Shown: positions 17,114 through 21,306 of the stretch, one piece after another
How positions within the stretch are numbered: position 1 is the first letter of the stretch
How the letters are laid out: each line of letters starts with the position of its first letter
Assembly: GCA_026692665.1 (NCBI GenBank)
Contig: JAPLOF010000009.1
Span: forward strand, 1 to 64,000
DNA: 64,000 nucleotides
From: Planctomycetota bacterium
GTDB taxonomy: Bacteria; Planctomycetota; UBA1135; GCA-002686595
Reading direction: 5' to 3'
Notes under the pieces: model-generated
Database searches by the model: none
What the model was told of the DNA's origin: nothing
What the model saw: only the letters and a program-made list of their open reading frames with translations
Translations under genes and position numbers: made by a program

Positions 17114-17419
<306 letters not shown>

Positions 17420-17648: not shown

Positions 17649-19724
17649 TCAGGTCCAGACCAGCCCGCGCGCGGCGAGCTCGTCCTCGGGGATGTGCCGC
17701 AGGCCGGCGGGCGTCATCGAGAAGCTGGCCCGGCCCTGGGACAAGGACCGCACGGCCGTCGAGTACCCGAACATCCGCGACAGGGGCACGGTCCCGACGA
17801 TCGTGCGGTACGGCCCGTCGCTGCGGACGTCCTCGACGGAGGCCTTGCGGGAGTTCAGGTCGGCGATGATGCCGCTCGAGAAGTCGGCCGGACTCTGGAT
17901 CTCGAACGCCATCAGAGGCTCGAAGAGGCCCACCTGGGCCTCCTGGAGTGCCTGGCGCAGGGCCTGCGACGCCGCCTGGACGAAGCCCATCTCCGCGTCC
18001 CGGCGCGGGTCCGTCCCCCCGCCCACGATCCGGATCGCCACGTGGACCAGCGGATGGCCGAAGCGCGGCCCGGTCTGGGCCTCCAGGGTCAGGGACTCGG
18101 CGATGGCGCGGCGGAAGGCCTCGGGCACGAGGCACCCGGGAGCCCAGTCGATGCGCGGCCGATCCAGGTCCGGCGCCACGACGAGCTCGAGATCCACGGC
18201 GCCGAAAACGTCCTTGCCCGCGATCTGGCGCTCCAGCCGCGCCGAGCCGCGGGCGCCGACCAGGAGAGCCTCGCGGTAGGCGACCCGCGGGGCGCCCGTC
18301 TTGGCCTGGATCTGGAACTCGGTGACCAGCCGGTGGCGGGCGACCTCCAAGTGCAGCTCCCCCATCCCGGAAACGAGCCATTGGCCGGTCTCGGGGTCCT
18401 CGCGCAGGCGGAAGGTCGGGTCCTCGTGCTCGAGCCGCTGGAGGGCCGCGCGCAGCTTGTCGCGGTCGGCCGACGACGCGGGCTCGATCACGAGGGAGAG
18501 CACCGGCTCGGGCACCTCCAGCCGCTCGAGCACGACCGGCGCGTCCTTCGCGCACAAGGTGTCGCCCGTCGCGGTCGCCTTCAGCCCTGTGAGCGCCACG
18601 ATGTCCCCGGCCGAGGCGCGCGCGACCGCCTCCCCCGCCTGCGCGTGCATGCGCAGGATGCGCGCGACGCGTTCGAACTTGCGGGTGCGCGGGTTCCAGA
18701 GCGAAGCCCCGGGCTCGACCGAACCGGAGTAGATGCGCACGAACGTGAGGTCGCCGTGCGGCAGCGCCTGCAGCTTGAACGCCAGCGCCGCGAACGGCGC
18801 GTCCGCGGCGCAGGGACGCAGGACCTCGTCGCCGATCTCGGGGTCGCGCCCCTTCACAGGCGGCAGGTCGAGCGGCGAGGGCAGGAGGTCCACCACGGCG
18901 TCGAGGAGCGGATGGATGCCGAAGTTCTTCTGCGCGGCGCCGCACAGGACGGGCACGAGCGTGCCGGCGATCGTGCGCCGGCGCAGGGCCGCGACGAGTG
19001 TCCCGAGCGGCGGTTCGCGCCCCTCGGTGACGTAGCCGAGGAGCTCCTCGTCGTCCTCCGCCAGCTTCTCGAGGAGTTCCGCGCGCAGGACGAGCACGTC
19101 GTCGCGCGCGTCGGCCGGCAGCTCCAGCCGCTGCGCGCGCGCCTCGCGGTGCTCGGTCTCGAAGGTCCACGTCGCGAGCGACAGCAGGTCCACGAGACCG
19201 CGCAGGGTCCGACCGCCGCTGGCTTCCGCCGGCGAATACAGCGGATATTGCACGGGAATCGCCGGCTCGCCGAGCCGCTTCTGCAGGTCGGTCGCGACGC
19301 GCAAGTAGTCCGCGCCGAGCTTGTCCAGCTTGTTCACGAACGCGACGTAGGGCACGTGGTGACGCTTCATCTGGCGCCAGACCGCCTCCGACTGCGCCTG
19401 CACGCCCATCACCGAGTCGAGGACGAGCACGGCGCCGTCGAGCACGCGCATCGAGCGCTCGACCTCGATGCCGAAGTCGACGTGACCGGGCGTGTCGATC
19501 AGCTGGATGCGGTGATCGCGCCACGGGACGCTCGTCGCCGCGGCCGTGATCGTGATGCCGCGCTCGCGCTCCTCCTGCATCCAGTCGAGGACCGTCGTGC
19601 CCTCGTCCACGTTCCCGAAGCGGTGCTCGACGCCCGTGTCGAACAGGATGCGCTCGGACACGGTCGTCTTGCCGGCGTCGATGTGCGCCGCGATGCCGAT
19701 GTTGCGGATCCGTGCGGGATCCAT
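17649..19724 (-). CDS. fusA: Divergent elongation factor G (spdEF-G-like)
   Basis: 691 aa from the ATG at 19724. Five-domain translational GTPase. G1 AHIDAGKTT, G2 within GITITAAAT, G3 DTPGH, G4 NKLD (canonical NKMD), domain II, domain III, domain IV and V ending FGYSTAVRSLSQGRASFSM. It occupies the fusA slot of the str operon. The domain IV tip loop reads GGGTDPRRDAE where E. coli has GSYHDVDSSE, so the tip histidine needed for efficient translocation is absent. That, with the C-terminus, recalls spdEFG subfamilies known from spirochaetes, planctomycetes and mitochondria (EFG1 translocation, EFG2 recycling). Which subtype it is I cannot tell. Confidence 0.9.
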   Translation of the reverse strand: MDPARIRNIGIAAHIDAGKTTVSERILFDTGVEHRFGNVDEGTTVLDWMQEERERGITITAAATSVPWRDHRIQLIDTPGHVDFGIEVERSMRVLDGAVLVLDSVMGVQAQSEAVWRQMKRHHVPYVAFVNKLDKLGADYLRVATDLQKRLGEPAIPVQYPLYSPAEASGGRTLRGLVDLLSLATWTFETEHREARAQRLELPADARDDVLVLRAELLEKLAEDDEELLGYVTEGREPPLGTLVAALRRRTIAGTLVPVLCGAAQKNFGIHPLLDAVVDLLPSPLDLPPVKGRDPEIGDEVLRPCAADAPFAALAFKLQALPHGDLTFVRIYSGSVEPGASLWNPRTRKFERVARILRMHAQAGEAVARASAGDIVALTGLKATATGDTLCAKDAPVVLERLEVPEPVLSLVIEPASSADRDKLRAALQRLEHEDPTFRLREDPETGQWLVSGMGELHLEVARHRLVTEFQIQAKTGAPRVAYREALLVGARGSARLERQIAGKDVFGAVDLELVVAPDLDRPRIDWAPGCLVPEAFRRAIAESLTLEAQTGPRFGHPLVHVAIRIVGGGTDPRRDAEMGFVQAASQALRQALQEAQVGLFEPLMAFEIQSPADFSSGIIADLNSRKASVEDVRSDGPYRTIVGTVPLSRMFGYSTAVRSLSQGRASFSMTPAGLRHIPEDELAARGLVWT

Positions 19725-19806
19725 GGTCCGCGCAAGATACTCGCTCGGGCGCGGAACTCCCGGTGCCGAGCGGTGCCCGCACACGGTACGGGACCGCAGC
19801 GCGACC

Positions 19807-20319
19807 TCAGGGCACGCGCGGCAGGCCGGGATTCGCCGCCAGGAAGGCGTCGGCGAACCGGTAGCCCACGAGCAGGTCGGGCGTCGGCCGACCGAGCAGC
19901 GCGAGAGCCGCATACAGCGCCTCGACCGAGGCCAGGCCCTGCTCGGGATCGACGAAGGTGTGGCTCTTGCGCGGATAGGCGGTCACGAGCTTCGGCAGGC
20001 GGCGCAGGCTCAACTCGCCGTCGCAGGTCGCGAGCAGGGTCGGCACCCGCCGCCAGGCGCAGTCGATCAGGAGCAGCGGCCGTCCGGCGTCGGCGGCCGT
20101 GATCTCCTCCCCGTCGGCGTGGAGCAGCACGCGCGTGCCGACCTCGAAGCGCCGGTCGTGCTTCCAGGTGAAGAAGCACACGCCCGGGAACCCGCGCAAC
20201 GGCGTCAGGGAGCACTTCGCGGTGGACTCCCGCGGATCGCGCAGGATCAGCACGTCGAGCTCCGACCCGGAAGTCGGGAGGTCTCGATCGCGGCTCGCGG
20301 TGTTGGGGTCGGTGGCCAT
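19807..20319 (-). CDS. Tsr3/DTW (TDD) superfamily protein, putative RNA aminocarboxypropyltransferase
   Basis: 170 aa. Not an annotated bacterial ribosomal-operon gene that I know. The sequence tracks eukaryotic/archaeal Tsr3: an N-terminal block with Cys (DPRESTAKCSLTPLRG), then LLLIDCAW (Tsr3 DCSW), then LRRLPKLVTAYPRKSH, ASVEALYAALALLG (Tsr3 LSCVEALAAAL) and FADAFLAANP (Tsr3 FxWGxxFLxLN). Tsr3 transfers the aminocarboxypropyl group of S-adenosylmethionine to an 18S/16S rRNA base; the related DTW proteins modify tRNA. It lies between rpsG and EF-G, with an AGAGGT ribosome site, so an rRNA target is a reasonable inference. Homology is by eye. Confidence 0.65.
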   Translation of the reverse strand: MATDPNTASRDRDLPTSGSELDVLILRDPRESTAKCSLTPLRGFPGVCFFTWKHDRRFEVGTRVLLHADGEEITAADAGRPLLLIDCAWRRVPTLLATCDGELSLRRLPKLVTAYPRKSHTFVDPEQGLASVEALYAALALLGRPTPDLLVGYRFADAFLAANPGLPRVP

Positions 20320-20401: not shown

Positions 20402-20881
20402 TCAGTTGTTGGCGTAGTGCGCGTAGGCCTTGTTCGCGTCGGCCATCTTGTGGACCTGTTCCTTCCACTGCACCGACGCGCCCGTGCCGTTGTAGGCGTC
20501 GACCAGCTCTTCCGAGAGCTTCTTCGACATCGCCTTGCCCTTCTTCTTGCGGGAGTTGTCGATGAGCCAGCGGATCGCGAGCGACTGCTGGCGCGCGCGC
20601 TTGACCTCGCGCGGGACCTGGTAGTTCGCGCCGCCGACGCGCTTGCTGCGCACTTCGACCATCGGGCGCACGTTGTCGATCGCCTTGTTGAAGATCTCGG
20701 CCGGATCCTGGACGTCGGGGAGCTTCTTCTGCGCGAGTTCGATCGCGTCGTAGAAGATGCCCTGGGCTGTGCTGCGCTTCCCGCCCCACATCAGCTTGTT
20801 GATGATCTTGGTGGCGAGCATCGACCCGAACTTGGGGTCGGGACGCAGGAGTCGGGCGGTCGAGGTGTAGTTGCGGGGCAT
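20402..20881 (-). CDS. rpsG: 30S ribosomal protein S7
   Basis: 159 aa. Head assembly protein; in E. coli autoregulates the str operon. Blocks: DPKFGSMLATKIINKLMWGGKRSTAQ (read in parts), PMVEVRSKRVGGANYQVP, RWLIDNSRKKKGKAMSKKLSEEL. Normal length, 50 nt after rpsL. No anomaly. Confidence 0.98.
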   Translation of the reverse strand: MPRNYTSTARLLRPDPKFGSMLATKIINKLMWGGKRSTAQGIFYDAIELAQKKLPDVQDPAEIFNKAIDNVRPMVEVRSKRVGGANYQVPREVKRARQQSLAIRWLIDNSRKKKGKAMSKKLSEELVDAYNGTGASVQWKEQVHKMADANKAYAHYANN

Positions 20882-20931: not shown

Positions 20932-21306
20932 TTACTTCTTCGGACGCTTCGCGCCGTACTTGGAACGGCCCTGCTGGCGACCGTCGACACCCGAGGCGTC
21001 GAGCGTGCCGCGCAGGATGTGGTAGCGCACACCCGGGAGGTCGCGCACGCGACCGCCACGGACGAGCACGACCGAGTGCTCTTGCAGGTTGTGCCCTTCA
21101 CCCGGGATGTAGCAGGTGATCTCCTTCTGGTTGGAGAGGCGGACCCGCGCGACCTTGCGCAACGCCGAGTTCGGCTTCTTCGGGGTCTGCGTCTTCACGA
21201 TCAGGCAGACACCGCGGCGCTGCGGGCACTTGTCCAGCACCGGGGACTTCGAGCGGTTCTGGACCGGCTTGCGGCCCTTGCGCACGAGTTGGTTGACGGT
21301 CGGCAT
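20932..21306 (-). CDS. rpsL: 30S ribosomal protein S12 with Arg88
   Basis: 124 aa from the ATG at 21306. Decoding-centre protein: [31 protein letters not shown] with Lys43 kept, [17 protein letters not shown], and [11 protein letters not shown]. Position 88 is Arg (codon at 21043-21045) where most bacteria have Lys; Lys88 to Arg is an established streptomycin-resistance change. The promoter lies about 80 nt upstream. Confidence 0.97.

Follow-up and report, generated by a model that had tools for sequence, protein, structure and literature searches.

Within a 64,000-nucleotide stretch of Planctomycetota DNA (the window), a gene for a 170-residue protein resembling Tsr3 is flanked by rpsG (ribosomal protein S7) and fusA (elongation factor G, EF-G). 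The predicted fold and the core residues support the view that this protein is a Tsr3-type aminocarboxypropyl (acp) transferase. However, uridine 966 of the small-subunit (SSU) rRNA, which is the target of Tsr3, is a G in every carrier of the gene in which the position can be read. The explanation that we favour, at about even odds, is S-adenosylmethionine (SAM)-dependent transfer of acp to a different uridine, with SSU rRNA as its likeliest location. Two features speak for it: the Tsr3 core is retained while the tRNA-binding domain of TapT is absent, and one bacterial order keeps the gene between S7 and EF-G.

Among 246 genomes sampled from the phylum, 52 carry the gene: every one of the 16 that belong to the window's order, and 36 of the 230 others. 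Proteins from 43 carriers were aligned, nine near-duplicates being left out, and residue conservation is given for these 43. The gene and its conserved segments are:

19807..20319, minus strand: Tsr3-like gene (pc1599 family, TDD superfamily), an open reading frame (ORF) of 170 amino acids starting with ATG.
20209..20217, minus strand: K35-C36-S37, by alignment with Tsr3 the counterpart of the K/R-C-T segment of the archaeal enzyme (K in 42/43, C in 43/43, S/T in 43/43).
20053..20064, minus strand: D86-C-A-W89, the D-x-S/T-W motif, with the predicted base (D) and the predicted SAM-orienting residue (W), both in 43/43.
19936..19983, minus strand: T113-A-Y-P-R ... D-P-x-x-G128, a loop predicted to read the substrate (P116, R117, P125 and G128 in 43/43).

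The protein is encoded on the minus strand; read on the plus strand, 19807-20319 gives a different, unrelated frame. R106 is kept in 42 of the 43 proteins, and the third residue of the D-x-S/T-W motif is S/T in 37, N in four and A in two.

The Tsr3-like identity suggested by an earlier note on this DNA is upheld by these residues and by a confident structure prediction, for which Tsr3 is the best match; the predicted fold is SPOUT-like and closest to Tsr3/TapT. Three of the sequence blocks on which the note had relied (DCAW, LPKLVTAYP and SVEALYAAL) are present as quoted, but the last reads F-x-x-x-FLAAN rather than F-x-FLAAN. The profile comparison that it had recommended gave a divided answer: PF04034 (Tsr3) matches with an E value of 3e-6, but its 27.4 bits fall below the curated cut-off of 29.9, and no match to PF03942 (DTW) was listed up to E 10. 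The protein thus appears to be related to Tsr3 while falling short of formal PF04034 membership. A single-sequence search of a database of 5.8 billion proteins found 1057 of 1427 candidates to be homologous at E<=1e-3, and a search of the same database with a 43-sequence profile found 5710 of 7999 scored candidates, numbers well beyond what chance would give. Among the best profile matches was a protein of Rubinisphaera brasiliensis (P0219, E 3e-55). Since Planctomyces brasiliensis, the former name of this species, was recovered by Burroughs and Aravind in 2014 (PMC4275035) in their description of the pc1599 family, the window protein belongs, as far as tested, to that family; the assignment runs through the R. 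brasiliensis homologue. The passages of that paper available to us place the family mainly in planctomycetes, verrucomicrobia and chlamydiae and predict it to be an RNase, giving neither a substrate nor a position in the str operon. The family has been known since 2014, and what is new is its operon position, its loop and the missing classical target.

In the phylogenetic tree, the bacterial family forms its own clade, apart from Tsr3 and from DTW proteins (support 100/95). The tree was built with 12 of the 92 archaeal hits and with 15 DTW loci out of 20 fetched; the other five did not fit the motif pattern and were left out, among them the DTW protein of the window's own genome. The family also differs from archaeal and eukaryotic Tsr3 (PDB 5apg, 5ap8) in its loop: G-N-P-x-[NH]-Y, found in all 12 archaeal Tsr3 sequences compared, is replaced in the bacterial proteins by T-A-Y-P-R-x-S...D-P-x-x-G. 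PF04068, present in most of the archaeal sequences, has no match in the window protein. With TapT/YfiP, the DTW protein that forms acp3U47 in tRNA, the family shares the TDD superfamily, the D-x-x-W motif, an S/T-x-E-A segment and a loop with Y and R, but the N-terminal Cys4 domain of those proteins (CxxCx6CxC) was absent from the window protein in a motif search. Both in sequence and in fold, the window protein is closer to Tsr3 than to TapT.

The modification at SSU position 966 depends on the domain of life: bacteria have 2-methylguanosine (m2G), archaea acp3U and eukaryotes m1acp3-pseudouridine (PMC6259748). A helix-31 pattern gave 57 matches in 56 of the 246 genomes (13 carriers and 43 non-carriers), all with G966; in the other 190 genomes the 16S gene is missing or its flanks are unlike the pattern. 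Three further carriers (G084, G198, G220) also have G966, which brings the readable carriers to 16 of 16, the window's genome included, and 14 of these have no U at all within 963-971. All 32 non-carriers in the 16S alignment likewise have G966. The profile of RsmD, the m2G966 enzyme (TIGR00095), finds matches at E<=1e-3 in all 52 carriers, and 48 of these reach E<=1e-20, which argues strongly, though not beyond doubt, for RsmD in carriers; only 111 of the 246 genomes reach the curated cut-off of this profile, which also matches three archaeal control genomes. In the window's own genome, one of the four weak carriers, the RsmD match has 25 bits (C3:256-486), as against 128 bits in the nearest relative (G240), likely a gap in an assembly that is 90% complete. 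Carriers that can be read thus lack the classical target base, and most of the 52 still have the bacterial enzyme for this position. The hypothesis that carriers would have U966 and no RsmD was rejected on both counts. Because 966 is G and not U in every readable carrier (16 of the 52), the classical Tsr3 job is excluded in these bacteria, and on this point the reading in the earlier note is not borne out as written.

The str cluster around the gene consists of:

20932..21306, minus strand: rpsL (ribosomal protein S12), first gene of the cluster (TIGR00981, 217.3 bits).
20402..20881, minus strand: rpsG (ribosomal protein S7), upstream neighbour (TIGR01029, 184.8 bits).
17649..19727, minus strand: fusA (EF-G), downstream neighbour (TIGR00484, 707.1 bits).

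The three genes are co-directional, and the Tsr3-like ORF is separated by 82 nt from the rpsG stop and by 79 nt from the fusA start, which confirms the position originally described for it. The order rpsG-tsr3-fusA, whose conservation in planctomycetes had been named as a check, occurs in 13 of the 16 genomes sampled from the window's order, the window included and once with about 3 kb between. The synteny counts come from tblastn, as a simple gene caller picked up the Tsr3-like gene at no more than 36 of 51 loci. A second count covers the 80 best of 355 relatives in named genomes; this set is biased towards kin of the window and shares genomes with the 246-genome sample. Of the 80, 64 are flanked by both neighbours and 73 by at least one, while seven have neither. 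Strains Pla86, Pla163 and Poly30 are among the named carriers. The ribosomal link through gene position is shown for the window's lineage only. A consensus scan of the minus strand from rpsL to fusA detected no promoter-like or terminator-like site, and a candidate promoter-like site, likewise a consensus match only, lies upstream of rpsL at 21418-21391. Co-directional order and short gaps suggest a possible co-regulation with ribosome supply.

The chemistry of such an enzyme can be modelled on its relatives. Transfer of acp by YfiP and Tsr3 has been demonstrated; the D of their shared motif is the proposed base, the W sets the unusual SAM binding, and in V. distributa Tsr3 the residue that aligns with position 37 of the window protein, T19, is a SAM ligand (PMC7026641). 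By analogy, D86 would be the base acting on the target uridine, W89 and the K-C-S segment would hold SAM as V. distributa Tsr3 does, with the acp carbon rather than the methyl group facing the substrate, and the family-specific YPR loop would read a different RNA site. Expression together with S12, S7 and EF-G would point to rRNA, perhaps to the 30S head that S7 binds; gene position is what suggests a ribosomal target. We tentatively extend this to a possible acp-uridine of planctomycetes at a new SSU site, which a retargeted Tsr3, encoded in the str operon with S12, S7 and EF-G, would introduce while the 30S subunit is being assembled. To our knowledge, bacterial rRNA does not bear acp.

Several observations weigh against the proposed acp transfer to another SSU uridine. 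Helix 31 is not readable in 36 of the 52 carriers. When 16S was compared between 17 carriers and 32 non-carriers, no uridine convincingly tracked the gene, the U frequencies differing by 0.23 at most, nor did any 23S uridine (10 carriers, five non-carriers and E. coli); 23S columns near 1165 and 740/757 were dropped, as they lie in variable helices and the comparison set is tiny. No str-operon gene was found near the Tsr3-like gene in 39 of the 52 carriers (three in the order and 36 outside; 4-18 kb fetched). In the window protein itself, the third motif residue is A instead of S/T, and the YPR loop is slightly nearer the Y-x-I/L-R of DTW proteins than archaeal Tsr3.

A serious, if rather unlikely, alternative is that the product is acp3U in tRNA, in the D-loop or the variable loop, as for TapT, DTWD1 and DTWD2, and that the gene lies in the str operon of a single lineage only because both serve translation. 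In the literature consulted, the bacterial TDD enzyme whose target has been demonstrated, E. coli TapT/YfiP, acts on tRNA (PMC6895100, PMC7026641); 18 of the 43 relatives match the DTW domain, weakly, at E<=0.01; and Y and R in the post-motif loop are shared with 15 DTW proteins, chosen by the pattern Y-x-[LIV]-R, and with the DTW protein of the window's genome. The 39 carriers with the gene outside the str operon and the 38 of 52 without a DTW gene over the cut-off are also in its favour. Against it stand the greater closeness to Tsr3 and the missing Cys4 RNA-binding domain, which has been proposed for tRNA recognition (PMC7026641). Moreover, a DTW gene coexists with the Tsr3-like gene in 14 of the 52 carriers, compared with 40 of 194 non-carriers that have one (Fisher p 0.35), and displacement of TapT/DTW by the Tsr3-like gene was rejected, as there is no exclusion. 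The window's genome is an example, with a separate DTW/TapT-like protein (L293, C41:8500-10100, 130 bits) that has the Cys4 motif; its D-A-D-W motif has D as third residue, not S/T.

An activity other than acp transfer (a SPOUT-type methyltransferase, a nuclease, as predicted in 2014, or an assembly factor with lost catalysis) is improbable, given that the two residues linked to acp transfer in YfiP and Tsr3, D86 and W89, are invariant, and that both of these enzymes were later shown to transfer acp (PMC7026641). Transfer of acp to G966 itself, for example to N1, beside or in place of the methyl group, is the most improbable of these proposals. It would suit a place that bears a modification in each of the three domains (PMC6259748) and the G966 kept in every readable carrier, but non-carriers share this G, and RsmD is clearly matched in 48 of 52 carriers. 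We know of acp transfer by the TDD superfamily only on uridine or pseudouridine derivatives. For the bacterial family, we found no literature on a target.

The wider surroundings showed some further features. By reading of the translations, rpoC and rpoB lie upstream and rpsJ and rplC downstream of the str cluster; rpsJ (17114-17419) directly follows fusA with no EF-Tu gene between, unlike in the E. coli str operon. The EF-G encoded there, with 712 bits to TIGR00484 in a comparison across the genome, is not the best of its genome: another at C23:111514-113571 scores 947 bits, and a third, at C36:46148-48130, 374 bits. Planctomycete EF-Gs described in PMC3150367 include a recycling type, spdEFG2, of which the str-operon EF-G may be a candidate member. 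Outside the str operon the neighbours of the Tsr3-like gene vary; ten recurrent ones were scanned and are mostly metabolic or transport/protease genes, one being without a Pfam match. At one locus (L042, genome G092), the simple gene caller placed a 772-residue ORF between rpsG and the Tsr3-like gene. Relatives were also seen on contigs labelled Opitutales, Myxococcales and Deltaproteobacteria (L207, L209, L225, L226) and Bacteroidia (P0299), which reflects either transfer or mis-binning, and five loci on viral contigs have 26-residue matches.

The str operon, a core ribosomal operon, thus appears to encode a Tsr3-like enzyme in bacteria that lack the target base wherever their 16S rRNA can be read, which would point to an acp site that has seemingly never been looked for. 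If acp transfer to another SSU uridine is the true function of this family, one RNA-modifying fold would have been retargeted between domains of life.
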